Part shown: in pieces, positions 5,484-40,174 of the stretch
How positions within the stretch are numbered: the first letter of the stretch is position 1
Layout of the letters: the number at the start of each line of letters is the position of its first letter
Program-made: the position numbers and the translations under genes
DNA from: Pelagomonas calceolata
Lineage: Eukaryota > Sar > Pelagophyceae > Pelagomonadales > Pelagomonadaceae
Length of the DNA: 64,000 bases
Assembly (NCBI GenBank): GCA_918797485.1
Contig: CAKKNE010000006.1
Span: forward strand, 3,038,001-3,102,000
Direction of reading: 5' to 3'
The notes under the pieces: generated by a model
Seen by the model: only the letters and a program-made list of their open reading frames with translations
The model's database searches: none
What the model was told of the DNA's origin: nothing

Positions 5484-6237
5484 ATGTCAGCCGTCCCCTT
5501 CGCCGGCGTCGGCAAGCCCTTCCAGAAGCACGCCGAGCGCCACGCCGCCGGCACGCCGCGGGAATCGATAGACGAGTTTGACGGGCGGGCCGTGCTCGCG
5601 CTGCCGCGGGAGGGCGCGTCCAAGGACGGCGAGCGGCCCTGGTTCTCGGGCCAGGTCGTCGCGACGGACGGGTCGCGGCGCCAGTTCCAGGTCCTCGCGA
5701 CCCCCCTACCGCCCTGCGAGGACGGCTGCAAGTGTTCGGGGGGCGACGGCCTGCATAGATATAGGTTGGCCCTCAAGGACGCGACGCGGCGGTTGTGTGC
5801 GGTGGTCATCTGCGACGCGTCGGGCGGCGACTTCCTGCGGTTGAGACCTGTGTGGACATCAAATTTTACGGCGCGTTCGCCTGCCCGATGGCGTGGCGAT
5901 GTCGGTTCCTCACCGCTCGACGGACACCCGACGCACTGGTTGATTTCCACACAGGTTGACGCCGGCGGACCCTTCGTTAGCATCGTTCGAGCCGGAGACG
6001 CTCCTCGAAGACGACCGCGCGCGGGCCGCGCTAGATACGTTCTTCCCGCGCCTCGCGGCGGAGGCCGACGCCGGTTTTGATTGTTGCGTCGTCGTCGGTC
6101 GGTTTCAATGCAAGCAGTTGCTCCTCTTCGGGGCGACGCGGAAGCGCGGGGCCGCCGATGCTATGCCGGGCGCCACGCCGCCGCCCAAGAAGCCGGCGGT
6201 CGCACCGGCTCCGACGACGCCGCCGCCGGGGCCCTAG
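5484..6237 (+). CDS. Conserved protein of unknown function, one introner-derived intron
   Basis: Exons 5484-5839 and 5955-6237 give a 212-residue product. The intron 5840-5954 is an introner copy plus one target-duplication copy; removing it joins ...GDFLR to LTPADPSLASFEPETLLEDD in frame, whereas reading through runs into an unrelated frame. The middle part (HRYRLALKDATRRLCAVVIC) has the alternation of strands and a D-x-T turn seen in OB-fold nucleic-acid-binding domains such as POT1, but this is only a resemblance. The C terminus is a Pro/Ala-rich tail. No targeting peptide is evident. Function unknown. Confidence 0.65.
5848..5954 (+). mobile_element. Introner Element, 107 bp
   Basis: Terminal inverted repeats CTGTGTGGACATCAAATTTT and GGTTGATTTCCACACAG. 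The flanking 8-bp duplications are gttgagac (5840-5847) and gttgacgc (5955-5962), 6 of 8 identical. The intron runs from the GT that begins the left duplication to the AG ending the element. Confidence 0.9.
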
Positions 6238-6356
6238 GAGGGGTGCCAGCTCCGAGGCGCCCTGGGAGTGGCGTCGCGTCGTCGCTGTGTCTGTGATCTG
6301 TGTGTGTGCCTAACTACCCCCTTCGACGCCGCCGACGCGCCAACTCATAGACAAAC

Positions 6357-6998
6357 TTAGTGCGTGAAGATCTTCCCCTTGCGCTCGCCGCAGACGGGCC
6401 GCGCCGACATGGGCTCGCGGTACGTCTCGAGGTAGTAGCGCGGCAGGGCCCGATCGTCTTCCTCCTTCTTCGCTTGCAGGGACGATAGCCGCGCTTCCAA
6501 CGCCCTCCTTTCGTCCAGGATGTCATCAAGACGACCCTTCGAGGCATCCACATCGTCCGCTGAAATAGTATAGATGTACTCGTGCCGCCTCATGGTATAC
6601 GGTTTCCGCGGGACGCCCTCATCGGTCAGAAACCGCGGCGACGGCGCGTCGGGCGTCGCCGGCCGCGGCCGCGCTTCCCGTTGTATTATACCTGGTGCCA
6701 TCTTCCCTCTACGAGAGACGGGGTCGTAGGTCACGTCGCCTCGTCTGTAAGCTCTTGCGACTTCGGCCAAAGCCCTACCAGTAGTCGTGTGCTGCGTCCT
6801 TTGGTAAGCGACGGCCTTCGATGCGTCGAAGACGGTCGTGGGGAGGGTGAATTTGGGCGGCGCGCGGTCCTCGTACTTCTGCTCCTTCGTCATCCTATCC
6901 CGCTCGTAGGCCAGTTCCTGCGTCGAGAGGCAGCGCGCCAATGAATTGCCGTCCCTTACTCCGACCTCCTTGTGGGCTACTACTTTCTCGCGCGTCAT
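6357..6998 (-). CDS. Conserved protein of unknown function with C-terminal coiled coil
   Basis: The ATG at 6998 gives 213 residues; upstream in frame only non-ATG starts precede a stop, so this is the natural start unless an upstream exon is spliced on (CGCAG lies just before the ATG). The product is basic, with MTREKVVAHKEVG at the N terminus, many R/K-x-P motifs in the middle and a helical segment (GRLDDILDERRALEARLSSL) followed by a Tyr-rich end. The low-hydrophobicity, motif-poor composition recalls axonemal or cytoskeleton-associated proteins, but I recognise no family. Confidence 0.6.
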   Translation of the reverse strand: MTREKVVAHKEVGVRDGNSLARCLSTQELAYERDRMTKEQKYEDRAPPKFTLPTTVFDASKAVAYQRTQHTTTGRALAEVARAYRRGDVTYDPVSRRGKMAPGIIQREARPRPATPDAPSPRFLTDEGVPRKPYTMRRHEYIYTISADDVDASKGRLDDILDERRALEARLSSLQAKKEEDDRALPRYYLETYREPMSARPVCGERKGKIFTH

Positions 6999-7479
6999 CC
7001 TGCGCAGCGATGGCGTCGAGGCGCTTGCAATCACTTATGGTGAGGCTGGCTGCCTGTGGGCCTCCTGGGACGAGCGACGGCGGCCGCGGCGGGAGGCGGC
7101 CGGTTTGTAGTCGTTCGTGTGCCGCAAGCGTCTCCCGCTGGAAGGGCTGCGTTTGCGGGCGGAGAGGCACCGCTACACTCAGGCGCTGCGGCGTGAGATG
7201 GCCTCTCTAGAAACGCGAGCGCTCTCCGCGGGCTGCGGACCACGTGTTAACGCGTCTGGAGACGTATGGGTGTGTGGGAGTGCTCGAAATCCGACATGCT
7301 AGTGGGGTTACCTAGCACCATCGGACAAAATTATTTGGGCCGACAAGCAGCCATTACTTTCCGGTTTTGCAACGACAAGCCGCAAAACTCTCGGATCAGT
7401 CGATTGGCTGCCACGCGCCGCCATTCGTCGCCTCCTCTCGCTCTCAGCCCTCGCCGCGCCGGCGCGCAGCCTGGCAGCC
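6999..7479. promoter_or_regulatory. Divergent promoter region
   Basis: A 481-bp gap between starts at 6998 and 7480. It holds a degenerate palindrome at 7298-7316. Several open frames on both strands overlap each other between 7030 and 7300, none with family similarity; a non-coding leader or upstream exon for the gene at 6998 cannot be excluded. Confidence 0.4.
7298..7316 (+). promoter_or_regulatory. Degenerate promoter palindrome
   Basis: GCTAGTGGGGTTACCTAGC keeps the outer CTAG pairs and the TTAC core but with a shorter spacer. It lies 163 bp before the phosphomannomutase ATG. Confidence 0.4.
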
Positions 7480-8223
7480 ATGCCGGCCACCAAGCGCACG
7501 CTCGCGTTGTTCGACGTCGACGGTACATTAACACCAGCGCGCCTGAAGATCACGCCGGAGATGAAGGCCTTCCTCCAAGAATTGCGGAAAACCATCAGCA
7601 TCGGCGTCGTCGGTGGGTCCGACTTCGTCAAGCAACAGGAGCAAATCGGTAGCGATTCTCTGTCCAATTTCGACTACTCCTTCGCCGAGAACGGGTTGGT
7701 AGCGTACAAAAACGACGAACTAATAGCGAAGGCGTCGTTCGCCCAAAAGATCGGCGAAGAGGAGTTACAGAAATTAATTAATTGGGTCCTCGCGTACCTG
7801 TCCAAAATTACGTTGCCCATCAAGCGGGGCACGTTCATCGAGTTCCGGACGGGCATGCTCAACATCTCGCCGATCGGGCGGAACTGCGCGCGCGACGAAA
7901 GGAACGCGTTCGAGGAGTATGATTTGAAGAACAATATAAGAAAGGACATGGTCGCTGCGATGCAGAAAGAGTTCGCCCACCTCAACCTGACCTTCTCGAT
8001 CGGCGGGCAGATCTCGTTCGACGTGTTTCCCGCGGGGTGGGACAAGACGTACTGCCTCCAGTTTGTGGATAGATCGTTGTTCGACGAGGTCCATTTTTTT
8101 GGAGACAAGACCTTTGAAGGCGGTAATGATTATGAGATCTTTACGCACCCGGACGTGAAGGGCCACTCCGTGACGTCGCCGGACGACACGAAGGCGCAGT
8201 GCACGGAGCTGTTCCTCTCGTAG
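7480..8223 (+). CDS. PMM: Phosphomannomutase
   Basis: The 247-residue product has the length of eukaryotic PMM. The HAD nucleophile motif FDVDGTLT is at residues 11-18 (Asp12 nucleophile, Asp14 acid/base). Cap-domain motifs GGSDFVKQQEQIG, FAENGLVAYK, FRTGMLNISPIGRNC and the C-terminal FFGDKTFEGGNDYEIF Mg-binding segment are all present and intact. It interconverts mannose-6-phosphate and mannose-1-phosphate for GDP-mannose, feeding N-glycans, GPI anchors and ascorbate or fucose routes in the cytosol. Single exon; no targeting peptide. It converges on the N-acetyltransferase gene with 56 bp between stop codons. Confidence 0.96.
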   Translation: MPATKRTLALFDVDGTLTPARLKITPEMKAFLQELRKTISIGVVGGSDFVKQQEQIGSDSLSNFDYSFAENGLVAYKNDELIAKASFAQKIGEEELQKLINWVLAYLSKITLPIKRGTFIEFRTGMLNISPIGRNCARDERNAFEEYDLKNNIRKDMVAAMQKEFAHLNLTFSIGGQISFDVFPAGWDKTYCLQFVDRSLFDEVHFFGDKTFEGGNDYEIFTHPDVKGHSVTSPDDTKAQCTELFLS

Positions 8224-8279
8224 ATGATGGACTGTGGTATAAAAACTTGAGATTTAATTGCTAGGGGGTAGGTCGTGAA

Positions 8280-9440
8280 TTAGAGCGTGATGCCGAAGTT
8301 GGCCTCGAGGGCGTCGCGCCACTCCTTCTCCGTGGAAAGAGTCGTGCGGCTGACTTCGACGCCGCGCTCGACGGTCTTGATGTAGTCCTTGCCGAGCATG
8401 ACATGACCGTCGTCCTTGGCGAGGACGCAGAGGCCTGCGGGCGGAACACACACGTCGCCGTCACGACCGTACGAGTCGAAGGGAAGAGGACACCGGGGCG
8501 CTACGCTTCGCTTGGAAGATGTTCTTCTCGGGGTCTTCGTCGAGCACGGCCGCAAGGCCCTCGACGAATTCCGGCGAATCGTACGGGAGGTCATCTTCTA
8601 AATTCAGGGCGTAGACCGGAATTGGGGGCATAGGCTCCGGCGGCGGCGGAGGAGCTCCCACAATATCGAAGAAGGCTGTTGCTGAGCCAACGCTTCGCTC
8701 GCGCATCAGGACGTGGGAAAACCGCTCAGCAAGACCAAACTCTTCTAGGCCGAAGCCAGCGGATGGCGCGAGATTGTACTTTTCGCCGAGCGCAGGATCG
8801 GTCGCGCCGCCCTTGACGGAGAAGATTGTGCGGATCGCGTCGCCGAAACCGGGATCGACGAGCAATGGGTCCGCTCCGAGGCCGTCCACAAAGATGACCA
8901 AATGTCCCTTGTTGGGCGGAGTGCCGGGCGGGCCGAAGACGTCGGAGCGGCCCAGGCGGACGCTGTAGCCCAGCTGGCGCAGGAGCCACGCGAAGGAGAA
9001 ATTGAGTTCGAAGCAAAAACCTCCCCTGTTTTTCTCGACGAGCTTGCTCAGGCACGCGTCGACGTCGAGCGTTGGTAATAACGGCTTGGAAACGGCAGGC
9101 GTGCCGATGAAGGGCAGTCCCTCGGACGGATGGTTGTGCTGTCCAAGGTTCTCAAAAGGAATTGACGAAAGATGCGCGGTCAGCAACGCCTGGAGGTCCT
9201 CCGCGTTCGGTGCTCGGTCCACGATGGCGGCGTCGACCTGCGTAGCGCGCATGTGTCGCGGCGCGCGCGTCTCACGGGGACGCCGATGGGACGCACGCCG
9301 AGGCGGTTCAGGTACATGTCTCGCATCCCGGCATCGTCCGCGCTGCTCGCCGCCGCGCGGGGCTGCCTATGGACTCTGGAATGGGATGGTGGCAGCGTGA
9401 ACGCTGCCGCGACGGGCACAAGGAGCAGCCAAGCAACCAT
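8280..9440 (-). CDS. Arylamine N-acetyltransferase, plastid-type presequence, three exons
   Basis: Exons (minus) 9440-9282, 9237-8505 and 8434-8280 give 348 residues. Exon 1 supplies MVAWLLLVPVAAAFTLPP (signal peptide ending A|F, a plastid targeting mark) and the NAT start DMYLNRLGVRPIG; exon 2 has IPFENLGQH, RGGFCFELN (catalytic Cys), KGHLVIFV (His) and LLVDPGFGD (Asp); exon 3 ends ALEANFGITL, like the NAT C terminus. Introns of 44 bp (9238-9281) and 70 bp (8435-8504) are placed because each join restores the family sequence; reading through leaves the NAT frame. It transfers acetyl from acetyl-CoA to arylamines or hydrazines; the algal substrate is unknown. Confidence 0.88.
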
Positions 9441-9467
9441 GATCGACGGAGCTGGCTTGATTGTAGC

Positions 9468-9489
9468 CCTTAGCGGCGTTACACTTGCG
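9468..9489 (-). promoter_or_regulatory. Degenerate promoter palindrome
   Basis: CTTAGCGGCGTTACACTTGC resembles copies with TTAGCGG...GTAAGACACTAGC but has several mismatches. It lies about 30 bp upstream of the N-acetyltransferase start at 9440. Confidence 0.3.
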
Positions 9490-9604
9490 AAGGCAGCGTC
9501 TGTCTTCTTTTGGCAGCGTCAAATGATGGGGGAGTTCTAGATTCCAAAAACTTGAACTCATGGTGCGGGTCCGCGAAGGCAGACGGATATAAGTAACAAC
9601 ATGA

Positions 9605-10579
9605 TTACAGCTCCGAAACCACAGTGCTCAGCTCCGCGTTGCGCGTCGGCCGCACTCGCAGCGCGGGAAAGCGGGCGACGGTCCGCCCCGCCCGCTCGAG
9701 TTTTTGAACGCCTTCGAAGAGCGCCCGCTCCGCGGGCCGGCCCCGCGACTCGTCCTGGCCGCCCAGCAACGCGTCGAGCAAAGACGCGTCGAAGCCAATC
9801 ACCTCACTCCGGAGCACGCCGTCGCCTAGCGACCAGGGCGACGGCGTGGATTGGACGACGATGTCCGCATCAACCGTATCGAGCACCGCATCCAGACCTT
9901 CGACGAAGTAGCGGCCCGTGATTTTCACGATCCGCCGGCACCTTTGTAAAGCTGGCAATGCTCGCCGGATCGCGCGGTGCTCGGCGTGGCCCTTGCCCTT
10001 GCTCGCGTCGACCTCGTCGTCCGTGAACGAGACGAAGTGCGCCGACGGTGCCGCCCGTCGCAGCTCCCCTAGATGTGCTCCGGAGTTCTCGACGACGACG
10101 AGCGGTCGTTTCGACGAGGCCGCGTAGCTCTCTAAAACAGCGACGTAGTCCCGCCGTCGTGCGACGGCGTCCCTTAATACGGTGTGCGTCATGGCCGACG
10201 GCGGACAGACCGTCGCGGTGAGTAATATACACCAATCCGAGGCCGGGGCTTCTTCATTTGATACCGGCGGCTCGCAGTCTCCCGCATCAAAGTCGTGGGA
10301 GGCACAGTTAAACCGCGACGCACAACAGCCGTCGCGTCGCGCCGTCGCAGCGGTGCAGCGGCCGTCGCAGTCCCGCGCCTCGCCGCCGGCGCACGGCTCC
10401 GCCGCGTCGCAGAGACCGCAGGTCCGGTTGCAGGCGCCCGCGAAGGGGCAGTCGCCGCAGAACCACGCGCCGCAGAGCGCCGCGTCGCAGGCCGCGCGCG
10501 CGCCGTCGAGCCAGAGCGGCTCGTCCGTGCAATCACTGGCGGCCGCCGCGGCCGCGACGGCGAGCGCGCGCCAGCCCAT
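9605..10579 (-). CDS. Secreted protein: Cys-rich/LNR-like region plus glycosyltransferase-like domain
   Basis: The 324-residue product starts with a short signal peptide (MGWRALAVAAAAAA). Residues about 16-110 are Cys-rich and include CDGRCTAATARRDGCCASRF followed by NCASHDFDAGDC, the spacing of a Lin-12/Notch repeat with the D-x-G-D-C Ca-binding end. Residues 120-324 form one domain: ILLTATVCPP, a segment with RPLVVVENSGAH, FVSFTDDEVDASKGKGHAEH, RIVKITGRYFVEG and DADIVVQSTPS. The K-x-T-G-R-Y and D-x-D-I-V pattern recalls GT-A glycosyltransferases acting in the Golgi. The LNR plus transferase order recalls GlcNAc-1-phosphotransferase and similar enzymes, but I do not assert homology. Acceptor unknown. 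Confidence 0.6.
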   Translation of the reverse strand: MGWRALAVAAAAAASDCTDEPLWLDGARAACDAALCGAWFCGDCPFAGACNRTCGLCDAAEPCAGGEARDCDGRCTAATARRDGCCASRFNCASHDFDAGDCEPPVSNEEAPASDWCILLTATVCPPSAMTHTVLRDAVARRRDYVAVLESYAASSKRPLVVVENSGAHLGELRRAAPSAHFVSFTDDEVDASKGKGHAEHRAIRRALPALQRCRRIVKITGRYFVEGLDAVLDTVDADIVVQSTPSPWSLGDGVLRSEVIGFDASLLDALLGGQDESRGRPAERALFEGVQKLERAGRTVARFPALRVRPTRNAELSTVVSEL

Positions 10580-10667
10580 ACTATTGGTTTGGCATCGCTG
10601 CGGGGCGCACTGGTTGAATCGCGCCGCGAGGGGCAGCCCTCTCGCGCTCCAATTGTTAGGGAACCGG

Positions 10668-10691
10668 GCTTAGCGGCCGTAAGACACTAGC
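10668..10691 (-). promoter_or_regulatory. Recurrent promoter palindrome, copy 3
   Basis: GCTTAGCGGCC then GTAAGACACTAGC, inside the divergent promoter of the genes starting at 10579 (89 bp away) and 10829 (138 bp away). A TATATA-like stretch (CATATATAGC) follows at about 10780. Confidence 0.6.
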
Positions 10692-10828
10692 AAACAGCCC
10701 GTGCGCCCGAGGAGGTCCGCAACAGCGTGCACCGCTATTGCGCGGTCTCTGGCTGCCCGTTTTCGCTGGCCCATCCATATATAGCGCCTCGCTAGAACTT
10801 GGGCTGCCCTCTTCTCTGGTCCCACCCT

Positions 10829-11557
10829 ATGGCACCCGGGCCCATACACGATGCCGCACGCGAGCACGACGTCGAGACGCTCCGGCGACTGCTTGCGGAA
10901 GGTGTGTCGCCAGATGCACTCGTGGATCAGCAAGTACGTAGAAGACCTCTTCATTGCTTGTGCCTGCGTGATGATGAGAAAAATGAGGGTGATCGCGCGG
11001 CCTGCTTCGAGCTCCTTCGCGACGCGGGGGCAAATTTGGAAGCGGGCGATCAAATAGGGTACACGATACTTCACCTCGCGGCTAGAGATGCATTCGTCGA
11101 GTTGATATCGTTGCTAGTTCAAGCCCGCGTTAATTTGGATGCGACACTACAGACTGGTGACACAGCGCTGCACCTCGCAGCACGCTATGGGGCTGTCGAT
11201 AGCGTCGAAGTGCTCCTGGCCGCAGGCGCTTCTCTGAATCTAAGAGAAATTCATAACGGGAATACTCCTTTCGACGTGGCACTCTATTATGGCACTGGCG
11301 GCGGCCACGCGCCGCCTGAACAACGCGCTAGAAGTCGCCGGACGTGGCCGCTATTCCTCCGCGCCGGTGCCGCGGTACCTGCTATATACACCGGCTCGGA
11401 AGACCAGTACCTCTTCCGAGTCGTCGCCGCGGGCGGATTCCAGAGATACGCCCAAGCCCATGTCGCGCGGATCGCGTCGATCCTCGAAACGCCCCTCCTC
11501 CCGCCGGAACTCGTCCGGAAAGTCCTTCAGTTTTGGCTCCACGCGGGCTACTACTGA
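10829..11557 (+). CDS. Ankyrin-repeat protein
   Basis: The ATG at 10829 gives 242 residues starting MAPGPIHDAAREHDVETLRRL, already an ankyrin helix pair. Three to four repeats follow, with consensus pieces YTILHLAARDAFVELISLLV, DTALHLAARYGAVDSVEVLL and GNTPFDVALYYG. The C terminus ends with a helical ETPLLPPELVRKVLQFW segment that looks like a short SOCS- or F-box-like helix. Ankyrin repeats bind partner proteins; no partner can be inferred. Single exon, no targeting signal. Confidence 0.8.
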   Translation: MAPGPIHDAAREHDVETLRRLLAEGVSPDALVDQQVRRRPLHCLCLRDDEKNEGDRAACFELLRDAGANLEAGDQIGYTILHLAARDAFVELISLLVQARVNLDATLQTGDTALHLAARYGAVDSVEVLLAAGASLNLREIHNGNTPFDVALYYGTGGGHAPPEQRARSRRTWPLFLRAGAAVPAIYTGSEDQYLFRVVAAGGFQRYAQAHVARIASILETPLLPPELVRKVLQFWLHAGYY

Positions 11558-11642
11558 GTAGTGTAAAGCTATATTGTTTGATCATGATGGACTCGGATTG
11601 TAAAGACTTCCTGGTCAACGGAAACTGAAGAGACGCGTGATT

Positions 11643-11666
11643 GCTAGTGGCTGACAGGACACTAGC
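11643..11666. promoter_or_regulatory. Palindrome variant in a 3'-3' gap
   Basis: GCTAGTGGC then TGACAGGACACTAGC, a near-symmetric copy of the motif. Unlike the others it lies between convergent gene ends (11557 and 11726), so it cannot be a simple promoter element for either gene. Confidence 0.4.
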
Positions 11667-11725
11667 AAAGCACCTTTCGCGCTATGTTACGACGGCCCGG
11701 GTGACTAAGATTACGTTTACTGCCC

Positions 11726-13085
11726 TTACCCGGCCGCCTCCCCGGGATCGCTCCGCGTCGGCAGCCACGGCGCCTTGACGGACAGGCGCGAGCAGGGCCG
11801 CCGCGCGCAGAAGGCCTCCATGAGCTTCGTCATCGTGTCCGCCGTCAGATATTCCCCCGCCTCGGCCTTGCTGGCGCCGAAGGCCTCGACGACGTCCGCG
11901 GGATCGTCCCACGGCGCCACCGCGATCTCGCCGTACGGCTCCACTCGCGCCGTGAGGGGAGGCGGTAGCGTCCGCCGGCACGAACGCCGCAAACAGAAGA
12001 ACTCGAGCATCTTGTTCGCGCTCTGCTCGGTGATCTCGAAGCCGGCGGCCGTCGCCTCGCGCGAAAATTTGGCCACCTGTGTGGAACTCGACCAGTGAGT
12101 CGCGTCGACGGCGTGGAGGTCGACGCGATGTTTTCCGCACGGAGGTCACGGCAGCCGCGGGCTCGCCCCACGGCGGCACCTCCAGCGCGCCGACGCCCTC
12201 CACATCCAAACGCATGGGCGCGACGGGCCGGTGGCAGCTTCGACGCGCGCAGAACCACGCCATCGCCGCGTCGAGCTGCTCCGGGAGTACTGATATATAA
12301 GCTTCGGCGGCCGTCGAGGCCAGCCGTTCTACGGCCGTCGCCGGCTCCTCCGTCGGTAGGCAGGTGACGCTGCCCAGCCCGCTCACGTTCAGCGTCAGCG
12401 GCGGCGTCAGCCCCCGCCCGCAGCTCCTTCTCTTACAACACCACTCGTACAAATCCTGCATGCTCGCTTCATTCACTTCGTGCCCCGACATCGTCGCGGC
12501 GGCCGTCCAGCCCTCGATCGCGTCCGCGACGTCGTGCCAGGGCTCGACAACCAGTCTTCCTACTCCCGTCACGTTGAGTTCCAATCTCCGATCGAGCGCG
12601 TCGACGCACGCGCGCTTCTCACACACGGCGTCGAGCACCCGTCTTAATTGATTCTCGCCCAGGGGGTTGCCCGCGCTCTCGGCCGCCCGTCCGAGCTCGG
12701 CCACCGCTCTGGCCGGCTCGACCCAGGGCTCGACCACTAATGTCCCGACGCCCTTGACGTTCGCCGTCAGCCGTTCCCTGTGGAAGCGCCTTCTACAGGG
12801 CGCGAGGACGCAGAGCTTGTCGAGGATCGTCGTGAGGTTCTGTAACGACAGCGTCACGTTCTGCTTGAGGGCCGTGGCGTAAAAGGCCTCCACCACGTCC
12901 GCCGGGTCGACGCCGGGGTCCACCCGCAGCACGCCGAGGTTCTCGACCGTGAGCGACACGGGCTCAGTCGGCGCCTCCGGCGCCTTGGCTCTTCTTGCCG
13001 CTTCTAACAATGCGCGCGCTCGTCCTTCTACCTCGTCGTCGCTGCGGCACAGCGCGGCGAGGAGCAGAAAATTGCAGCCCCGCAT
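11726..13085 (-). CDS. Secreted protein with six roughly 60-residue Cys-containing repeats; introner-split
   Basis: Exons (minus) 13085-12150 and 12076-11726 give 428 residues. After a signal peptide (MRGCNFLLLAALCRS) come about six repeats of one pattern: LxVxGVGxLxVEPWxEP, AxAVxxLxxAAxxxG, a helix, then a Cys-x(4-5)-Cys pair (LCVLAPC, VCEKRAC, WCCKRRSC, FCARRSC, FCLRRSC, FCARRPC). The paired Cys probably form a disulfide in each unit. The join through the introner recreates a perfect repeat (GEPAAAVAKFSREATAAGFE); reading through destroys it. I recognise no named family. The last repeat ends near the C terminus with no membrane anchor, so secreted or lumenal. Divergent partner is ATG5. Confidence 0.7.
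12077..12141 (-). mobile_element. Introner Element, 65 bp, diverged
   Basis: On the plus strand it starts CTGTGTGGAACTCGACCAGT and ends TTTTCCGCACGG. Flanks in gene sense are gtgacctc (12149-12142) and gtggccaa (12076-12069). The intron is 12077-12149 (73 nt), GT from the duplication, AG from the element. Confidence 0.75.
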
Positions 13086-17808: not shown

Positions 17809-19642
17809 CTAATCCCACCCGTCGTCGCCCGTCGCCACGACCTCCTCCGCGACGGGCTCGACGTAGTCCGTGTACTTCGCGCGGGCGTCCAAGAGCTGCG
17901 GATGGATGTCCTCCGCCAGCTCGCGCCGCGCCGCCGCCGCGGCTTCCACGCGGAGCTCGCGCAGGCGCAACGCCATGCGCGCGGGTATCACGAGCTCGCC
18001 GCCCCGGATGTGGTAGGGCGACTCGTCCCTATAAGCCCAGAGCGCCTCCATGCATGCATCAGCATCGGCGCCGGCGTCGCGCGGCCGCGCCTCGTACTGG
18101 CCCGGCGGCGGCCGCTTCGAGCGCTTTTCGAGCGACGAGCGCGGGTCGCCCTTGGACAGCTTCGGGACCCACTTCTGGGAAAACCTGTGCGTATCTCATT
18201 GAGAAGTGCGAGGACGATCGAAACATTCGACGCCGGACGGGGACTCCTCGAGAAACGATAGCGCCGCATCCTTCGCCGCCGAAGCTATTTCGTCCCCCTC
18301 CCCCTTCACATACTTGGCTTCACGTTCCTCGCGGCGCTTGCGACGCCGCTCGACGACGCGCTCGTCCACGTCATCATCGTCTTGATCGGCCTTGGCCTCT
18401 CTCCTTAAATAACCGCTCTCAAAGGCATTTTGTGGAGTCAACGAACGCACCTCCTCCGTGAGCGCCTCCAATGCTCGCAGCGTCGCGAGGCGGTCGCAGG
18501 CTCGTTGACTGTGTGAACGGTACCGTCGCGTCGATGGCGCGTTGCTCGACGCCATCGACGCGGACCCGAAGTATTGAAGGCACAATTGACACCGAGTCAG
18601 CACTCAAACGCGTAGAGGGGCATCGGCTCGTCCTCGGTGTACCAGCTCGTGCGCGTTTCACCGCCCTCCGCGAGCTCGGCATCTCGCAGCATGGCCGCCT
18701 GTGCACAAATCAACCAGTGAGTCGGGTGCGACAGATGCGCCGCGAGAATTTGATTTATGCACTGATGGTCGCGTCGGGCAGGCCCCCGATCTGGCGCTCG
18801 AGCGCGACGCGCTCCTGGTCCGCCTTCTCGAGCTCAGAGAACTGAAATGCCCAGGTGTCGACCTGTGTGGAAATCAAAATTTTACGGCGCGTTCGCGCTG
18901 AATCTTCGCGTCGAGCTTCACGCCATCGACGCGACGCCTGCTCGATGGCGTGGCGATGCCGGTTCCTCACCGGTCGACAGAGCCAGCGCGGCCAAGTGCA
19001 CCCGACGCAATGGTTGATTTCCACACAGGTGTCGACCATGACGTCGGCCGTCGTCACCAGCCTTTTTAGAACTTGCTTTGGGTCAATCACCTCGTCGTAG
19101 ACTTCCATGGCTTGCTTAGCCAGGAACGGATTGGCGAGTTCTCGCGCCGACCTGTGTGGAAATCAACCAGTGCGTCGGGTGCACCCGACAATTCTTCACT
19201 AAGTCATTTCTCGGCGATGGCGCGGCCGTGCCGGCTCCGTCGGGCGGCGAGGAACCGGCATCCTCACGCTATGGAGCAGGCGCCGCGACGCGCCATAAAA
19301 TTTTGATTTCCACACAGGCGCCGACAGGCGCCGCCGCGGGGCCACCGCGATCTCTACGACCTCTTTCTCGGCCGTGCCCATGTCTACTAAGTATTCCTGG
19401 AACGGTTTGTTGAGCTGGCCGAACGCGGCGCTGTAGGTGCCGGGGAAACGTCTTGGTGAATTGCTATCGAGGTGGGCGTGGTCCTGGAAGGCCTTGAGCC
19501 AATTACCGAGCGGTTCGTTCTTCAAATCAGCCATATAATTCAACTGCTGCTGAACGGCGCGCTGGACGAGGTAGTCGCCGAGGTTGATCTTGGGCGGCGC
19601 CAATGCCCAGGCGGCGGTGGCGAGGCAGAGGTAGCGCCACAT
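17809..19642 (-). CDS. Conserved protein of unknown function, six exons, three introner-derived introns
   Basis: Exons (minus): 19642-19326, 19151-19037, 18862-18773, 18698-18604, 18508-18239, 18184-17809; total 1263 nt, 420 residues. Introns 1-3 are introners with target duplications, intron 4 (18509-18603) ends in a CACACAG introner-like end and intron 5 (18185-18238) is plain. Every join keeps one frame: ...RRRLSARELANPFLAKQAMEV..., ...VMVDTWAFQFSE..., ...GLPDAAMLRDAE..., ...LYAFDQRACDRLAT..., ...EESPFSQKWVPK... The start MWRYLCLATAAWALAPP looks like a signal/plastid presequence. The centre is acidic-basic (VDERVVERRRKRREEREAKY), the C terminus helical. No family recognised. Without the introns it looks like two or three unrelated fragments. 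Confidence 0.72.
18699..18764 (-). mobile_element. Introner Element, 66 bp, GC-AG type
   Basis: Plus-strand ends CTGTGCACAAATCAACCAGT and TTGATTTATGCACTG. Flanks in gene sense are gcgaccat (18772-18765) and gcggccat (18698-18691), 7 of 8 identical. The frame requires an intron from 18772 to 18699, so the donor is GC. It is the shortest copy with clear inverted repeats. Confidence 0.75.
18863..19028 (-). mobile_element. Introner Element, 166 bp, perfect target duplication
   Basis: Ends CTGTGTGGAAATCAAAATTT and GGTTGATTTCCACACAG on the plus strand. The 8-bp duplication gtcgacac (gene sense) is identical at 19036-19029 and 18862-18855. The intron of 174 nt runs from the first duplication's GT to the element's AG. 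Confidence 0.92.
19152..19317 (-). mobile_element. Introner Element, 166 bp, perfect target duplication, opposite orientation
   Basis: Ends CTGTGTGGAAATCAACCAGT and AAATTTTGATTTCCACACAG on the plus strand, i.e. flipped relative to the copy at 18863. The 8-bp duplication gtcggcgc (gene sense) is identical at 19325-19318 and 19151-19144. Same length as its neighbour, so both are probably recent. Confidence 0.92.
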
Positions 19643-25401: not shown

Positions 25402-25423
25402 TACGATGTTGATTGAGAGCTAG

Positions 25424-33174: not shown

Positions 33175-33651
33175 TTGTGCCTTCTTGCTGTTGTTTTTTG
33201 CGTCGCGGCGGCGGCGTCTAGCTGCGGTTTCGCGCGCGCGCGGCTGGAGTCAAATATCAGTCGCTGCGGCGTACGCGTGGAAAATCGCTGCAGTTACGGC
33301 TCTGTGACAGTGAGGAGAGATGCCCTGTGTCCGCGCGTCGCGTGCGGGCTCGTATTTGCAGAGTTTGGCTCGACCAAAATGCCCACAAAACCCGAATTCA
33401 AATCGTGTCGTGTTTCCGGCCAATCCATGCGTATGAAGCTTGCCGATGAGTCGTCCAGAAGCCATCCAGACAAATGGAGGGATGATACGTGCTCGAGATT
33501 CGGGCCGATCACTCGACGCTGCCGCGCTTGAGCAGCTTGGTTACACGTGTAGGAACGCGCTGGGGACGCGAGCAGCGATTCACAAACACCACAGGACTCG
33601 TGTGCGCCACTGTCGCCATCGGTGCGTCGTGAGGCGCCCTAAAACACCGCT
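33175..33651. promoter_or_regulatory. Divergent promoter region without clear palindrome
   Basis: 477 bp between starts at 33174 and 33652. No good copy of the recurrent palindrome and no coding-like frame seen. Confidence 0.4.
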
Positions 33652-35231
33652 ATGATGTCATATTGCAAATTGCTGCTGCTTTGGGCAGCAGCGGCACGCC
33701 CCGTCGCGGCATGTAGGTTCATCGCCTACTGCGGCAACCGCACGGTCGACGCGCGAAAACTACTCTTGGACGGCGAGAACAATTTACTCGCCCTAGCGAC
33801 GAGCCGACCGCTCCTCCCAGCTCTCTCGCTGTCGAGGCACTACGACGAGGCACAAGTACCACTAAGGAACGTGGAGAAGAACCTGGATGGCTACGGCGTG
33901 TCCTGGTACGAAGAAGGCGAGTCCTTTCCTCGCAGAGTCAGAAGTGCCAATCCGATCATCAAGGATAATGTGTCGGATGCGACCTTCCAGAATTTGTTGG
34001 ATGGGCGGGCCGCTGTGTGGAAATCGACCAGTGAGTTAGGTTATTTGCGGAGACCTTCGTGAACCTCCACGCCATCGAACCGGCGCGGTCGCGTCGACAA
34101 TGTCGCGTCGATGGCTGAAAACCACGCTATCGAGCAGACAGCTACGGAGACAACATCGCGTCGATGGCGTAGGGCGCCCGAAATTTGATTTCCACACAGG
34201 CGCGCCGTGCCCATGCTGTTCCGGGCTTCATTAGATGTTTGTGTGGAAGAGCCGCAGCCACCTTCACAAGTAGCTCTTGAATCTAGAGCCGTCTTCGCGC
34301 ACGTAAGGGCCGCATCCCCCAATTCGACGCAGAAGGAGACCAATTCGCACCCGTTCGCATTTCATACGTTAACATGGCTCCACAATGGTCATGTTTGGGG
34401 TTTTGAAAAGTTTCGGGAGCAGCTCATCGCGAAGCTTCCCAGGAAATTGCTGCCGTTGGTCGCCGGCGACACTGATAGTGAACTGGCCGGTGCTGTGTTT
34501 GCGTCGCATCTCGCGGGGTTTCCTTATCGGAAGACGTATGATTTGGTCGCGTTGCGGGCGGCGATGCTCGCGACGGTGGCGAATCTGCGGGAGCGCTCGT
34601 TGCGGGTCCACGAGAGCGAGGGTTCCGATCTGTGTGGAAATCAACCAGTGCGTCGGGCGCACCGGCATCACCACGTCATCGAGCAGGCGTCGCGTCGATG
34701 GCGTGGAGGTCGACGCGAACGATTCAGCACGAACGATTCCACACAGGTTCCGATGTCTGCCCCGACATGCCGCCCTCATCTCTAAACTTCGCTGTTTCAG
34801 ATGGTACATCCCTGGTCGTTATAAGGTTCCGGTCCTCGATGAGCGAGGACCCGCCCACGCTCTACTACCGGATTGTACCAGAGGGCGTGATCGTCGCCTC
34901 GGAGCCGTCGTCTTCAGACGCCGAAACGCTCAGGGAGTGGACGCTGCTCGGCAAAAATAGGATGCTCTCTTATAGTCCCTCGACGGGCGTCCACGTCGAG
35001 TGCGTCTGCCCGCACAGCTGCGACGACGACGTGTCGGCGGCGGCGCACTTTTCCGGGCGGTCCGAGGCTGACGCCGTTGTTGGCAAGGGCCTGGTTTGGT
35101 ACGCCGCCGCCACGGTCCTGGCGTTCCTGCTGGGCCGGCGGTGGCCTGCTCGGTCTTTATCTGAGGAACTGGCGCTTTCTGTCGTCACCGTGTTGTTAGC
35201 CTGGTGGTGCCTGACCACTCCTCCATGGTGA
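33652..35231 (+). CDS. Secretory class II glutamine amidotransferase (DUG3/EgtC/YafJ-like), C-terminal membrane anchor
   Basis: Exons 33652-34004, 34200-34621 and 34747-35231 give 419 residues. The family normally starts Met-Cys-Arg, with Cys2 as N-terminal nucleophile; here a signal peptide (MMSYCKLLLLWAAAARPVAA) comes first and CRFIAYCG follows at Cys21, exactly where signal peptidase would cut. Further family motifs: NLDGYGVSWY, VFAHVRAASP, TWLHNGHVWGFEKFR, GDTDSELAGAVF, LNFAVSDGTSLVVIRF, IVASEPSSSD. Both introns are introners; the joins DGRAVPMLF and EGSDVCPDMPP restore the family sequence. A C-terminal hydrophobic hairpin (LVWYAAATVLAFLLG and LSVVTVLLAWWCL) anchors it. DUG3 relatives hydrolyse gamma-glutamyl bonds, e.g. 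in glutathione; a lumenal gamma-glutamyl hydrolase is inferred. Confidence 0.85.
34013..34199 (+). mobile_element. Introner Element, 187 bp, GC-AG type
   Basis: Ends CTGTGTGGAAATCGACCAGT and AAATTTGATTTCCACACAG, with internal ATCGCGTCGATGGCG hairpin arms. Flanks gcgggccg (34005-34012) and gcgcgccg (34200-34207), 7 of 8 identical. Intron 34005-34199 would use a GC donor; the alternative GT inside the left repeat adds four codons in frame. Confidence 0.85.
34630..34746 (+). mobile_element. Introner Element, 117 bp, perfect target duplication
   Basis: Starts CTGTGTGGAAATCAACCAGT and ends ACGATTCCACACAG. The 8-bp duplication gttccgat is identical at 34622-34629 and 34747-34754. Intron 34622-34746, GT-AG. 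Confidence 0.9.
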
Positions 35232-35632
35232 GGCCGTTCCCAGTGTAATTATGTGTGAAATTGAACCCCGGATCGCCGTGGGGGCGCGTCGACAGCGTTT
35301 AGCTAGCGGTCTAAGACACTAGCAAGTACCTCAGGCCACGCTGGCGGCCTTGTAGCGGTGCGTAGAGTCCACCAGAGTTGGCTCCAGTGCGCAAGGATCG
35401 TCTACGTGTGGCTGGTCGACGGGTAGGCTAACCTCCGTAGCTCGGGAGACAGCGTACGTGACACTGCACACTGTATGACCAACGCAGCACTCGTGCCGCT
35501 AGATCTCGAGGACGGAGTCGTAGGCTACGACGCAGTCCTAGCAGAGATCAAGTGATACGCGACGTCTGAAGGCACCTACGCGCTCCCATACGTGTCGGGC
35601 ATCTTTTGTATTTTACCAGCAGCGGCGATACT
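35232..35632. promoter_or_regulatory. Promoter region of the selenoprotein gene
   Basis: 401 bp with one palindrome copy (35302-35323). A short frame ending AGATCAAGTGA at about 35553 has protein-like codons (LEDGVVGYDAVLAEIK) but no family match. Confidence 0.45.
35302..35323 (-). promoter_or_regulatory. Recurrent promoter palindrome, copy 9
   Basis: GCTAGCGGTCTAAGACACTAGC, 310 bp before the ATG at 35633, the largest distance among the good copies. Confidence 0.55.
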
Positions 35633-36367
35633 ATGGTGGCGACTCGTATCATCTTAGCGCTGGCGCTGGCGCAAACTTCGGCGCTCGTCCCACCAGCAAG
35701 GCGCGTCGCGACGACGCTCGCCGCCACACAGACTGATTGCGGCTGCGAGGTCATGACCGGGGACGTCCCGACCAAGGCGCAGACGATGCGCCATCGATCG
35801 GTGGTCAGCGACCTGCCCCTCCTCACGACCGACGGCACGCGAACGACGCTCAAGACTTCGATACCGGAGCGCGTCGCCGTCGTCGCGTTCCTGCGGAGTT
35901 TTGGGTGACCCTTCTGCCAGGAGCTCCTCGTCCAGCTGGAGAGGCGGCGCTCGGAGCTCGAGAAGGAGGGCGTGGGCCTCTACGCCGTGGGCATCGGCAC
36001 CTCTGAGAAGGCGCGACTTGTGGCTGACCACGTCGGCTACTCCCCTTCGAAGTTACTGGCGGACCCGGACAATTTGTTGTACGACGCCCTTTCCTTGAAT
36101 GCGGGTTTGCAAAGAACTTTTTTCAATCCATCCACACCCTACGCCATCTTGGATCGACTCACATCAAATAAAATGGGCGATTTGAATGACGTGCTCGGCA
36201 AGTGGGGAGACGCGTTCATCATTCCGCCCAAGCAGAGCCAAGCGTTGAACCAAGGGGGCTTGTTCGTTTTTGACGGCGAGGACAGCGCGTTCGTCCACTA
36301 CGACGCGTCGACGGGCGCGCACGGCGATCTCGACCAGGCCGTCGCCGTCGCGCTCGCTCGAGCCTGA
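35633..36367 (+). CDS. Selenoprotein, AhpC/TSA (SelU/PRXL2-like) family, in-frame TGA as Sec92
   Basis: Read with TGA at 35906-35908 as selenocysteine, the frame gives 244 residues. The TGA stands in VAFLRSFG-U-PFCQELLVQL, exactly at the first redox position of the CxxC (here UxxC) of the PRXL2/SelU thioredoxin-like family. Family sequence continues after it in the same frame: ERRRSELEKEGVGLYAVGIG, LLADPDNLLYDALSLNAGLQ, GGLFVFDGEDSAFVHYDAST. A SECIS-like hairpin follows the final TGA stop (36365) within 10 nt. The N terminus MVATRIILALALAQTSALVPPARRV fits plastid or secretory import. Likely role: thiol/peroxide redox chemistry. Conventional gene callers would split it in two. Confidence 0.88.
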
Positions 36368-36377
36368 ATACTCGGTT

Positions 36378-36441
36378 GCGCGTGTTCGTGACGCGCCAAG
36401 TTCCCTCGTACTGCGGGGCTTGGCGCCGACTTCATACGCGC
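36378..36441 (+). promoter_or_regulatory. SECIS element (selenocysteine insertion signal) in the 3' UTR
   Basis: Helix I pairs 36378-36384 (GCGCGTG) with 36435-36441 (TACGCGC, one G-U). After a small internal loop comes the quartet: GTGA at 36388-36391 facing GA at 36428-36429. Helix II pairs 36393-36400 (GCGCCAAG) with 36419-36426 (CTTGGCGC), eight perfect pairs. The 18-nt apical loop has CCC where most SECIS have AA; CC is a known variant. Distances fit the eukaryotic SECIS model. GTGA rather than ATGA is less common. Confidence 0.75.
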
Positions 36442-36887
36442 GCCGGGGGCGTTTGTTAAATGTTTATCCTCCTACTGCCTGCGCGGCGCGCTCGCGCGAA
36501 ACTGCAGCCAAGCACAGTACCCCTGCTCGACGAAGTCTGGACCAGTAGCCTCGGGCGACGACTGCGACCAGGAATATTTGATGTCTCTTGATCGTCACGA
36601 CACCCGCGCACGCTTACTTTCATTTGAGGGGCGACAGGCAAAAACTGCTCCTGCCGCATTTCCTCAGCCTATACATTGATATAGCTCGGAAAAGCAGACG
36701 CCACCGGAACTCCGTTTCGCTGCGCTCCTCGTCGTGCAAAAAAATCGCTGGTCGCAGCTCCTCCGCAGCTGTAAACACAGCAAGTTTCTGCAGCAGCTAC
36801 AGCAAAGCTGCAGCGTTCCTAGGCTCCGGACACGAGTTCCGCAGCGCCGCCACTACGTCGCAGACAGCCCGGCGAAGCTAAGCCACG
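36442..36887. other. 3' UTR and promoter gap
   Basis: 446 bp between the SECIS and the next gene. No palindrome copy found. Repeated CTGCAG/GCTGC words (about 36770-36830) are the only pattern seen. Confidence 0.4.
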
Positions 36888-38370
36888 ATGATGCGCGCCG
36901 CCCGCCGCACCTTCAGCGAGATGAAGCCGCGCACGCGATTCGCAGCGCATAAATCAAATGTCGCATCCGCACGCCATCGCCGCGGCGCCTGCACGACGGC
37001 GTGGCGGCGCAGCGCCCTGACCTCATAGCGACTCACACAGGCGCTTCGTCATCAAGACCTTCAACAAGATCAGCCCGCAGGGCTTGGAGCGCTTTAGACC
37101 GGAAATGTACCGCATTAAACCGGGCGAGGACCAGCCTCCGGTAGCACATGCCATCATGCTCCGCTCCCACAAGATCCAAGATAGCGACGTCCCGTTGACG
37201 TGCCGAGCCATCGTGCGGTGCGGCGCGGGCACGAACAATTGCAACGTGCCGCGGATGACGGAGCTCGGGATTCCCGTCTTTAATACTCCTGGGGCCAATG
37301 CCAACGCGGTGAAAGAGTTGGTGCTTTGTGGGTTGCTCATGGCTTCTAGAGGTATTTATGAGGGTGCCAGTCACATGACGAAGTTACATGCCGAAGGCAC
37401 GGCCCACGAGCGCATCGAGAAGGACAAGGCCATGTTCGGGGGGCGCGAGTTGACGGGCAAGACGCTCGGGGTCGTCGGTCTCGGCGCCATCGGTGCGGCC
37501 GTGGCGCATTCCGCCATCGCCCTCGGCATGAATGTCGTAGGGTACGACCCCGGGTTGTCCGTCGAAGCGGCTCTCAGACTACCTTCCGGCGACATGGAGA
37601 TGGCGTCTTTGGAAGACCTCGTCGAGCAGAGCGACTACGTGACGCTACACGCTCCTTACATCAAAGATGTCACTCATCATTTGATCAACGCCGAGTTGTT
37701 GGCGAAGATGAAGCCCGATGCTAGTCTCTTAAACTTCGCGCGAGGCGAGTTAGTAGATGAAGCGGCTCTCAACGAGCGCTACGAGGATGGTGGCGGTGGT
37801 AGGTACATCACGGACTTCGCCGTTTCGGACGAGTTGTACCCGAGACCGAACGTCATCTCCATCCCGCACTTGGGAGCGTCCACGGAGGAGGCCGAGGCGA
37901 ACGCGGCCGCGATGGCCGCCGACACGGTCCAGCTCTACCTCGAGACGGGCACGATCAAGGACAGCGTCAACTTCCCGGCCTGCTCCTTACCGGCGCGCGA
38001 CGAGGAACATGTCCACCGCTGCACCGTGATCACGGAGAATCGGCCGGGCATGCTCGGTGACTTGATGAGCGTCTTCGGCGACGCTAATCTCAATGTGGTG
38101 CAACAAATAAACACCTCCAAAGGAGAACTCGCGTACAACGTGATTGATCTGGAACTTCCTAGAACGGCAGATGGGAAGGTCGACGTCGGTGAATTCGGCA
38201 CCGGCGACTTTGATAAGTTGCAGGCCAAGATCATGGAGGTGTCCGGGGTGAAGTCGACGCGGTTCATTTCGGACTGGTGCCCGGGGACGGGCTACGCCGT
38301 CAAGGTCGATGATCAGATCATCGGCATTGGCGTGGATTCGCCCGAGCAGGCGTCGTACGCGGAGCTCTGA
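36888..38370 (+). CDS. D-3-phosphoglycerate dehydrogenase with ACT domain
   Basis: Exons 36888-36934 and 37041-38370 give 458 residues. Exon 1 codes MMRAARRTFSEMKPRT, a basic presequence (mitochondrial or plastid); the introner-bounded join gives MKPRTRFVIKTFNKISPQGL in frame. NAD-binding motif VVGLGAIGAAVAHSAIALGM, substrate motifs VRCGAGTNNCN and LLNFARGELVDEAAL, and IPHLGASTEEAEANAA with the catalytic His are present. The last about 85 residues form an ACT domain (HRCTVITENRPGMLGDLMSV), which in this family can sense serine. It oxidises 3-phosphoglycerate in the first step of serine synthesis. Intron donor is GC by frame. Confidence 0.93.
36943..37040 (+). mobile_element. Introner Element, 98 bp, GC-AG type, diverged
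   Basis: Left end CAGCGCATAAATCAAATG resembles the variant end at 18764; right end ACTCACACAG. Flanks gcgattcg (36935-36942) and gcgcttcg (37041-37048), 7 of 8 identical. The only frame-restoring intron is 36935-37040 with a GC donor. Confidence 0.8.
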
Positions 38371-38437
38371 ACAAACTATCGCCTGGGCAAGTCCAAGTCC
38401 CCTCGAAGGCGATATCGTATCGATTAACTAGTGTCTA

Positions 38438-40174
38438 TTAAACTATCTCGACCTCGTCGTCGTCGTCCGTCCGCTGGCGTTTCTGGGGCTTGCGGAAGAT
38501 GTCGAAGAGGGGCTTGTTCGTATTTCCGGCGGCGGCGTCCTTCGTGAACTTCGCCTTCGGGCGCGGCGCGAGCATGCACTGCCGCGGGTTGTTGAAGGGC
38601 CGGAGGCGCTTCTGCTCGCGTGTTTGCTCGAAGTCGACGATCTTTTCGAGAACCTATGTGGAAATCAACCAGTGAGCCTCGTGAGAGCAGATGCGGTGAC
38701 GGGAATTACGTCGCGTCGATGGCGTAGCGTCGCGTCGATGGCGTAGAACCTCCACGCCATCGAGCAGATGCCGCGATGGAGACACCATCGCGTCGATGGC
38801 GTAGGGCGCCCGAAATTTGATTTCCACACAGATCGTCGCCTCGCCCGGCGCGAAATTATCGGGTAAGGCGGCCTTCGCCGCGGCGCACGCGTCCTTCGCG
38901 TTCTGGATGTCCTCGAGTAGTGCTCTGGCCGATTCATACGCTTGCTGCGCCGCTGCCTTCTCCGCGGCGCGCTGCCGACGGACCTCGTCCTTCCACTCGC
39001 TAAGGGCGCGGTGGAACTTGTTCCTTGCTCTCAACACCTTCAGCCGCGCGCCGACGTCCAACCTTCGTTGGAGGCGCTCGCACGGCGCCACAGTATAAAA
39101 CGTCTGCGGCTGACCTAGAGACTGAAGAGCGATCGCCGCGCAAGGTCCTAGAGTTGGACGAGGGACCCAGAAGTAGCGCGAGGAAGCTTGTAGACAAGCG
39201 AGGGACGCGCCGTCCAAACAGGGCCCAAGATGAGCCAGAAACAGGTCGTCCGGCAGTAGAGGACACGGTCTCTCGGTCGCAGCAAGGCGCCACTTCGCCA
39301 AACAAACGCGGGCCTCGCGCATGGATCTCTCAGGTAAACCCATGGATCCGACTTGTGACGCCTGGGCGGCCTGGGCCCAGGCGTCCTCCGCGTCGTCGTC
39401 CAGAACGTGTCGCCGTCGCGCCTGTTTCCGGCCGTTCCGCGCCGCGATCATACGACGGTCTTCACCGGAGTCGAAGGGGTGGGCACACGGCTGGTTGTCG
39501 CGTTCCCACTCTCGTACCTGATCCTTGGGTCCTGCTAACCGCCACGCCCTTAATTCAAGTGCGCCAGATAAAGCTTGTATGGGCGGCACGTGGCCCTTCC
39601 ACACGTCATCTAAGAGCGCTCTCGTGTAGTCCGCGGCGAGCTCGTCGTTCCAGACGCTCGTCAGGTAGAGGCCGTCGATCAGACCATTCATATTTGATTG
39701 GGCACGCTTCTTCTTCTTCCGCGGCGGCGCGATCTGCGTTGGTCGCGGCGGCCTCGCGGGCGCGAGGCCGAAACCCGCCGTCGCGGCCCGCCTTTGTGCC
39801 GCGCCCGACACGGGCCTTGGCGGCAAAGCATTAGGCGCGCGCGGCGCCGCGAGGCCGAATCCATTGGATGCGGCCCGCCTTTGTGCTGCGCCCGACGCGG
39901 GCCTTGGCGGCGGCGGCGGCGCCCGCGGCCGCGCTTTTGATGGAGGCGGCGCGCCGGGCGACTCGACGCGCGGCGCGGCCGTGGACAGGCGCCGTCTTAA
40001 TGATGCGGCCTCCAGCACCGCGGCGTCTCTAGCACTACTCGTCGCCGCGAGGTCCCTTCTTAGGGTCTCGACGTCGCGGCGCAGGTGGTGCTTGTCACGC
40101 TGCAGCGTCTTGACCTCCGCTAGCAGCGCATCTCGGTGCTGCGTGACGCTTCGCAACTGCTCGGCGGGGTCCAT
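38438..40174 (-). CDS. F-box-like protein with N-terminal coiled coil, introner-split
   Basis: Exon 1 is 40174-38828 (or to 38840), exon 2 is 38653-38438; about 516-520 residues. The ATG at 40174 starts MDPAEQLRSVTQHRDALLAE, a coiled coil; a Pro/Ala-rich part contains two imperfect copies of the phrase SGAAQRRAA-(S/T)-(N/A)-GFGLA. An F-box-like segment (PLLPDDLFLAHLGPCLDGAS then LACLQASSRYF) suggests SCF ubiquitin ligase function. A second helical region (WKDEVRRQRAAEKAAAQQAY) precedes the intron; exon 2 (VLEKIVDFEQTREQKRLRPF...DDDDEVEIV) is charged. Two in-frame donors are possible, GT within the element (38827) or GC at 38839, differing by four codons. Confidence 0.65.
38654..38831 (-). mobile_element. 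Introner Element, 178 bp, no matching target duplication
   Basis: Plus-strand ends CTATGTGGAAATCAACCAGT and AAATTTGATTTCCACACAG; the last 40 bp are nearly identical to the copy at 34013-34199. Flanks in gene sense are gcgacgat and gttctcga, which do not match, unlike every other copy here. Confidence 0.85.

Follow-up and report, generated by a model that had tools for sequence, protein, structure and literature searches.

A stretch of 64,000 nucleotides from contig 6 of the pelagophyte alga Pelagomonas calceolata (assembly GCA_918797485.1, positions 3,038,001-3,102,000; hereafter the window) contains six genes that are interrupted by nine short, related segments. An earlier note on this DNA had described these as Introner Elements, non-autonomous DNA transposons that insert into genes, duplicate their target and are spliced out as introns, and all nine segments lie where it had placed them (Table 1). 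P. calceolata is abundant in the ocean and has a chromosome-scale genome of 32.4 Mb and 63.6% GC, with six nuclear contigs and two organellar ones, contigs 7 and 8 (PMC9481584; statements from this and the other cited papers refer to excerpts of them). The assembly searched here comprises 32,445,274 bases in 8 contigs, and the GC content of the window is 63.2%.

Table 1. Genes and predicted introns in the window; each intron consists of the upstream target copy and the element, both given in the sense of the gene.
Feature	Position	Strand	Description
Unknown protein gene	5484-6237	+	intron 1; spliced frame open to 6237
Intron 1	5840..5954	+	upstream target copy GTTGAGAC (GT donor) + element 5848-5954; exon copy GTTGACGC at 5955-5962; duplication 6/8
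Repeat protein gene	11726-13085	-	intron 2
Intron 2	12077..12149	-	target copy GTGACCTC (GT) + element 12077-12141, degenerate 5' end; duplication 5/8
207-residue protein gene	18597-19642	-	introns 3, 4, 5
Intron 3	18699..18772	-	GCGACCAT (GC donor) + one-ended element CAGTGCAT...GTGCACAG (18699-18764); duplication 7/8
Intron 4	18863..19036	-	GTCGACAC (GT) + element 18863-19028; duplication 8/8
Intron 5	19152..19325	-	GTCGGCGC (GT) + element 19152-19317; duplication 8/8
Glutamine amidotransferase gene	33652-35231	+	introns 6, 7; Pfam GATase_6
Intron 6	34005..34199	+	GCGGGCCG (GC) + element 34013-34199; duplication 7/8
Intron 7	34622..34746	+	GTTCCGAT (GT) + element 34630-34746; duplication 8/8
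Phosphoglycerate dehydrogenase gene	36888-38370	+	intron 8
Intron 8	36935..37040	+	GCGATTCG (GC) + element 36943-37040, 5' end CAGCGCAT; duplication 7/8
Unknown protein gene	38438-40174	-	intron 9
Intron 9	38654..38839	-	GCGACGAT (GC) + element 38654-38831, acceptor TAG; flank identity 1/8, no duplication

Target duplications of 5/8 or better flank eight of the nine window elements. At these eight sites the upstream copy begins with GT (five) or GC (three) and the element ends in AG, as the earlier note held, and the ninth reads GC...TAG. Donor and acceptor are read on the minus strand for the elements at 12077, 18699, 18863, 19152 and 38654, since these five lie in minus-strand genes. The earlier count of eight duplications, three of them perfect, holds for three at 8/8, three at 7/8 and one at 6/8, but the duplication at 12077 reaches a weak 5/8. 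In 200,000 random draws from the same window, flanks were identical at exactly 5/8 in 3.4%, 6/8 in 0.7%, 7/8 in 0.1% and 8/8 in 0.008% of cases, so that seven duplications are secure and the 5/8 match at 12077 is weak when taken alone. By eye, the upstream octamer of intron 9 (GCGACGAT in sense) is a 7/8 reverse complement of nearby downstream exon bases, which may be due to chance.

The single type of inverted end attributed to all copies is present in most of them (CTGTGTGG-type), but the element at 18699 starts with CAGTGCAT and that at 36943 with CAGCGCAT in sense, and the 5' end at 12077 is degenerate; by their sense-strand starts, 18699 and 36943 represent a second subfamily. The elements occur in either orientation relative to the gene: the CCAGTG/CCATTG-side end comes first in introns 4, 6 and 7, and the AAATTT-side end in introns 1, 5 and 9. 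No further paired copies were found in the window at up to 4 mismatches per 15-base end, and outside the elements it holds only four unpaired end matches, each at 4 mismatches.

Removal of the upstream target copy together with the element yields one long frame in all six genes. The earlier claim that splicing restores the coding sequence exactly is borne out, at the level of prediction, by these frames, by homologs at six of the nine sites and by repeat spacing at a seventh. Three genes are undecided by frame length alone, because their unspliced frames are similar or longer: 226 codons unspliced against 240 spliced for the gene at 5484, while for those at 11726 and 38438 the figures are 531 against 492 and 531 against 541, respectively. 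At 38438 the question is settled by the homologs described below. In the spliced product of the gene at 11726, C..R.C motifs recur at a spacing of 61-63 residues, and these repeats are lost in the unspliced frame. Splicing of intron 8 would join a start exon to the enzyme; alignments with solved phosphoglycerate dehydrogenase relatives begin at residue 49 or later, short of the intron 8 junction. The product predicted after removal of introns 3, 4 and 5 is 100% identical over 207 residues to P0079 (UniRef A0A7S4E7W6, from P. calceolata), although this entry may be a genome annotation and not a transcript; we take its accession series to come from transcriptome assemblies.

Protein searches returned 78 homologs for the gene with introns 6 and 7, 24 for that with introns 3-5 and 9 for that with intron 9, of which the best 17 of the 78, all 24 and all 9 were classified. 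The comparison with orthologs that the earlier note had proposed could be made, at the protein level, for six of the nine window sites (introns 3, 4, 5, 6, 7 and 9), and every one of them is uninterrupted in some relatives: intron 6 in 9/17, intron 7 in 2/17, intron 5 in 13/24, intron 4 in 7/24, intron 3 in 12/24 and intron 9 in 4/9. Of the remaining homologs, some carry an element, some do not extend over the site and some have flanks that diverge. P0079 is among those counted for introns 3-5, although it is itself the spliced product and not an empty site. The site of intron 7 is empty in P0001 and P0006, and P0002, two residues shorter, is uninterrupted there too; P0003 and P0010 show no element in the multiple alignment, though the flank was scored as diverged. 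P0095 diverges at the site of intron 5. A spliced transcript can mimic an empty site. Where a protein reads into one element, however, its template was unspliced, and its other site is therefore truly empty. This logic applies to intron 6 in P0004 and P0005, to intron 5 in P0084, P0088, P0091 and P0092, and to intron 3 in P0090, P0094 and P0097. P0003 and P0108, whose longest contigs measure 21 kb and 39 kb, are likely to be genomic as well.

Four of the six covered sites are filled in other relatives, whose proteins are 84-98% identical to those of the window over the aligned part. Intron 7 is filled in P0004 and P0005, intron 5 in P0085 and P0089, intron 4 in P0084, P0088, P0091, P0092 and P0094 (with its 3' part in P0090 and P0097) and intron 9 in P0105, whereas introns 3 and 6 are filled in none of the classified homologs (24 and the best 17 of 78, respectively). 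The added residues match translated elements with scores of 47-254, against 29-46 for three negative controls. In P0004, P0005, P0084, P0088, P0091, P0092 and P0094 the residues encoded by the element follow the junction directly; in P0085, P0089 and P0105 a codon shared by exon and element intervenes, so that they begin one residue further on. The 15-residue tails of P0004 and P0005, which have the lowest score (47), begin with LCGNQPVR, eight residues identical to the translated start of the window element. The element in P0105 best matches the window's own and is preceded by GEVT, which corresponds to a GT donor in place of the GC of the window; uninterrupted homologs read APGE followed by V or I without a gap. 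Because the sites are empty in relatives at six positions and filled in others at four, the introns are, as far as protein sequences can tell, recent and exact gains.

Several further differences among these relatives were observed. At the site of intron 4 (18863-19028) the element of P0092 is opposite in orientation to those of the window and of P0084, which reflects either a second insertion, made independently into this target, or inversion of the element where it stood. P0101 seemingly carries a far shorter element, roughly 68 bp long and read through, at the site of intron 5, and two relatives of the gene at 38438-40174, P0106 and P0107, have an introner at a different place, some nine codons upstream of intron 9. 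An apparent extra intron between KNEP and LGNW, absent from the window gene 18597-19642, is seen in P0082, P0083, P0088, P0091, P0092, P0100 and P0101; the one tail among these that was compared with the sampled introners, that of P0100, scores 43, which is not above the controls. The tail of P0110 (36) does not exceed them either. The tails of P0103 and P0104 after DFEQSR resemble introners (score 53, against 29-46 for the controls) but start four residues in, and were not counted.

The genome-wide search with the element ends that the earlier note had suggested returned 790 forward and 772 reverse exact matches to the 15-mer end CTGTGTGGAAATCAA, 1,562 in all, against 0+0 for the reversed-pattern control. 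With a 13-mer end and up to one mismatch the number rises to 2,728 (1368+1360; control 10+2 = 12). The one-ended type, represented by the end CAGTGCATAAATCAAA, has 69 exact copies in the genome (control 0); of these, 22 lie in forward and 47 in reverse orientation across the assembly, a less even split than expected. Sampled loci totalling 280,227 bases, a figure that includes overlaps, so that the unique total is smaller, provided 96 distinct elements. Duplications in these are perfect in 47, 7/8 in 19 and 6/8 in 15 (81 with at least 6/8; reversed-sequence control 0), a share raised by the scan, in which elements with poor ends (14/96) were accepted only with a duplication of 5/8. Among the 82 elements retained on their ends alone, with no duplication demanded, 70 reach 6/8 and 40 are perfect. 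Lengths range from 52 to 203 bp, with one element of 324 bp, and cluster at 200-203 bp (12/96) and 186-192 bp (nine). Some pairs of copies are 97% identical end to end, the highest value found. The one full-length copy that was folded pairs its terminal repeats (z = -6.5 against shuffles), from which we draw no mechanism. Spread through viruses was considered and rejected: searched as exact patterns, neither end occurs in viral contigs, a set from which close relatives of the window's genome may be missing.

Reverse splicing, in which an intron spreads as RNA and not by means of a DNA transposase, has been proposed for fungal introner-like elements (PMC9860276). In its favour, the window elements are mutually similar introns and intron 9 lacks a duplication. 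It is nevertheless extremely improbable here, as it would predict neither the terminal inverted repeats with 8-bp duplications of at least 6/8 in 70 of the 82 elements chosen by ends nor the occurrence of both orientations relative to the gene, which is seen between introns 4, 6 and 7 and introns 1, 5 and 9 and again between P0092 and P0084.

The orientation of the elements was analysed in the 81 with duplications of at least 6/8; each of the 15 that were dropped retains at least one CT end, as do all 81. CT is found at both ends in 50, giving AG on either strand, 26 combine CT with CA, and five have other letters at one end; most two-ended elements were retrieved by similarity to one element, so that these proportions may differ genome-wide. 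By exact ends the two-ended form is far commoner across the genome (1,562 CTGTGTGG-type against 69 CAGTGCAT-type). In the one-ended subfamily the 5' end is CAGTGCAT and the other end is the reverse-complement, CTGTGC-type sequence. The pattern CAGTGCATAAATCAAA seeded 30 loci, of which 21 were included in the orientation count, one was a duplicate (L049 = L013) and eight (L037, L039, L040, L042, L045, L050, L055 and L063) were left out for a duplication under 6/8 or an end not found; the remaining five of the 26 one-ended elements came from other sampled loci and the window.

With the longest open frame as a stand-in for annotated genes, the strand on which the single acceptor end is downstream is, in 26/26 one-ended elements, also the one whose rejoined frame is longer. 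The rejoined empty-site frames have medians of 1,350 nt on the sense and 470 nt on the other strand (Wilcoxon p = 8e-6). Long frames as such (at least 450 nt) are nearly as common in the background, at 96% of introner sites and 89% of random positions in the sampled loci. In the direction set by the acceptor, GT or GC starts the upstream copy in 25/26 and the downstream copy in 26/26, compared with 9/26 in the opposite direction, and GT or GC stands eight bases upstream of the CAG end in 29/30 seed loci that were not filtered for duplication. Two-ended elements have GT or GC in at least one orientation in 50/50 cases and in both in 30/50, which exceeds base composition (GT 5.7% and GC 11.9% of dinucleotides); where a single orientation offers a donor, the longer frame agrees with the predicted sense strand in 18/20. 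We read these octamers as pointing to a target preference of GYNNNNRC, by which insertion sites would be donor-ready. Two-ended elements could splice in either direction. Since transposition should be blind to the orientation of a gene, genes seem to have lost copies in the non-splicing orientation, or never to have retained them.

These results bear on the possibility that the elements are ordinary miniature inverted-repeat transposable elements (MITEs) that lie in genes by chance and are partly retained or exonised, with no systematic splicing. Their ends and duplications are those of any MITE, and the unspliced frames are near-equal to the spliced ones in the genes at 5484 and 38438 and longer in that at 11726. 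Against it stand the 26/26 placement of the AG end, the exact restoration seen in homologs, the protein repeats that would be lost at 12077 and the match of P0079 to the spliced product, and we regard it as very improbable.

The nine elements are almost certainly Introner Elements, that is, short non-autonomous DNA transposons that insert in genes with an 8-bp target duplication. Many similar introns occur at unrelated positions in one genome, they have terminal inverted repeats and target duplications, and one splice site is carried (AG) while the other (GT or GC) is formed by the first two bases of the upstream target copy. In the proposed mechanism an element would insert in a gene and duplicate 8 bp of the target, whose GT or GC start would become the donor. 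The terminal repeat TTGATTTCCACACAG can be read as a complete 3' splice site, with a branch-like TTGAT that may serve as branch point, pyrimidines and ACACAG. The ordinary spliceosome would presumably then remove the upstream target copy with the element, and the downstream copy would stay as exon, leaving the mRNA unchanged. Target-supplied donors of this kind, which were part of the earlier interpretation, fit the restored frames, the six uninterrupted sites, the four that are filled elsewhere and the identity of P0079. The earlier statement that the genome is still gaining introns is sustained as regards recent gain (copies up to 97% identical, 47/96 perfect duplications, presence and absence in close relatives). 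Transposition may be continuing today, but the search for a transposase with such ends found none.

Some observations weigh against this identification. Intron 9 has no duplication and intron 2 one of 5/8, and the scan requirement described above favours elements with duplications. For intron 1 the unspliced frame of 226 codons is also open, and the evidence for introns 1 and 8 consists of frame logic. P0079 may reflect annotation, and the score of 47 for P0004 and P0005 compares with 46 for the best negative control. In 30/50 two-ended elements a donor in both orientations leaves the strand unfixed, and in 2/20 single-donor elements the longer frame is on the other strand. Finally, no autonomous partner with the introner ends was found in the genome; the check for long elements covered the first 100 of the 1,562 end positions, and one may lie elsewhere. 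A 3.4-kb candidate (C1:549074-552524) was rejected, as it consists of an unrelated end and a separate 71-bp element.

The Pfam Dimer_Tnp_hAT profile has one match in the genome, in an element with other ends (C4:4499549-4503199, loci L032/L033). This hAT transposon is single and intact-looking, with a 721-residue frame, 20-bp identical inverted ends that start with CAGGGCAGCAGAAG and a perfect 8-bp duplication (TTGCTCGC), and no relative of its protein was found elsewhere in the genome. The length of its duplication and the CAG that begins its terminal repeats are as in the introners, from which it differs in its CAGGGCAGCAGAAG ends, its 3,651 bp and its long frame. MULE and DDE_Tnp_IS1595 profiles gave no genome matches while their positive controls were detected; KDZ and P-element-like (TNP-like) RNase H profiles gave none either, but their positive controls were silent too, so that absence is not shown.

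The canonical hAT end consensus is CAGTG, and hAT transposases prefer targets of the form nTnnnnAn. It is conceivable, if rather unlikely, that a transposase of this superfamily drives the introner family and that the second position of a CAGTG end changed from A to T, first at one end and later at both, and so created the AG acceptor. The idea arises from the CAGTG start and the 8-bp duplications, which are those expected of hAT, and a hAT transposon is present in the genome, although that element has other ends and lacks relatives there. The target letters do not fit, as one-ended elements have T at position 2 in 19/26 and A at position 7 in only 7/26. The one-ended subfamily, with its CAGTGCAT 5' end and CTGTGC-type other end, is in line with the idea and looks older, with a nearest neighbour at 80% against 90% and perfect duplications in 11/26 against 32/50 for two-ended copies, but this comparison is biased by the retrieval of most two-ended copies through similarity to one element, and the reverse direction, with T lost at one end, is possible.

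Tentative, and less likely than not, is the suggestion that the genome holds both stages of a transposon becoming a universal introner, one-ended and then two-ended. One-ended copies, with CAG at 5' and a CTG-type 3' end, would give rise to introns in a single orientation, and two-ended copies in both. If true, one base of the terminal repeat would set whether half or all genic insertions splice, and copy number should follow. The origin of introns is a long-standing question, and introners are among the few mechanisms seen at work genome-wide. The presence of one- and two-ended forms, together with presence differences among relatives, could make selection for splicing separable from the target preference of the transposase within one genome.

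Introner Elements of Aureococcus anophagefferens, as reportedly described by Huff, Zilberman and Roy in 2016, are short, have terminal inverted repeats and target duplications, and carry one splice site while taking the other from the target; the same combination of carried acceptor and target donor is said to operate in both Micromonas and Aureococcus. The mechanism is thus already known from related algae, and introners in P. calceolata have been hinted at in print in PMC9481584, which cites Huff et al. and is the one paper that a literature search on introners in Pelagomonas returned. That paper, apparently on the same genome, gives no ends, duplications, subfamilies or polymorphism in the excerpt consulted. 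It reports a peak of intron lengths at about 210 bp, which it likens to the length of A. anophagefferens Introners and which is fitted by our cluster at 200-203 bp plus the 8 bp of target. With respect to that excerpt, the present analysis adds the one- and two-ended subfamilies, the 26/26 orientation lock and the differences in site occupancy between relatives, a comparison to which its Supplementary Note 3 and the work of Huff et al. do not belong.

A. anophagefferens belongs to the same algal class as P. calceolata (PMC9481584), and its introners, likened here by description and not by sequence, have direct repeats and terminal inverted repeats of constant length and canonical splicing motifs (PMC7789003). 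Similarity of introners between species has been seen only within a genus (PMC9860276). The introners of Amoebophrya resemble those of the window in having inverted repeats within the intron, direct repeats at its borders and the capacity to form a hairpin, but they have non-canonical splice sites and direct repeats of 3-5 nt (PMC7789003), in contrast to the GT/GC-AG sites and 8 bp found here. Family 4 introners of Aureococcus sp. have an 8-bp target duplication in a pelagophyte host, as do the window elements, but carry both splice sites and add 12 bp to the transcript (PMC9860276), whereas the window elements add nothing.

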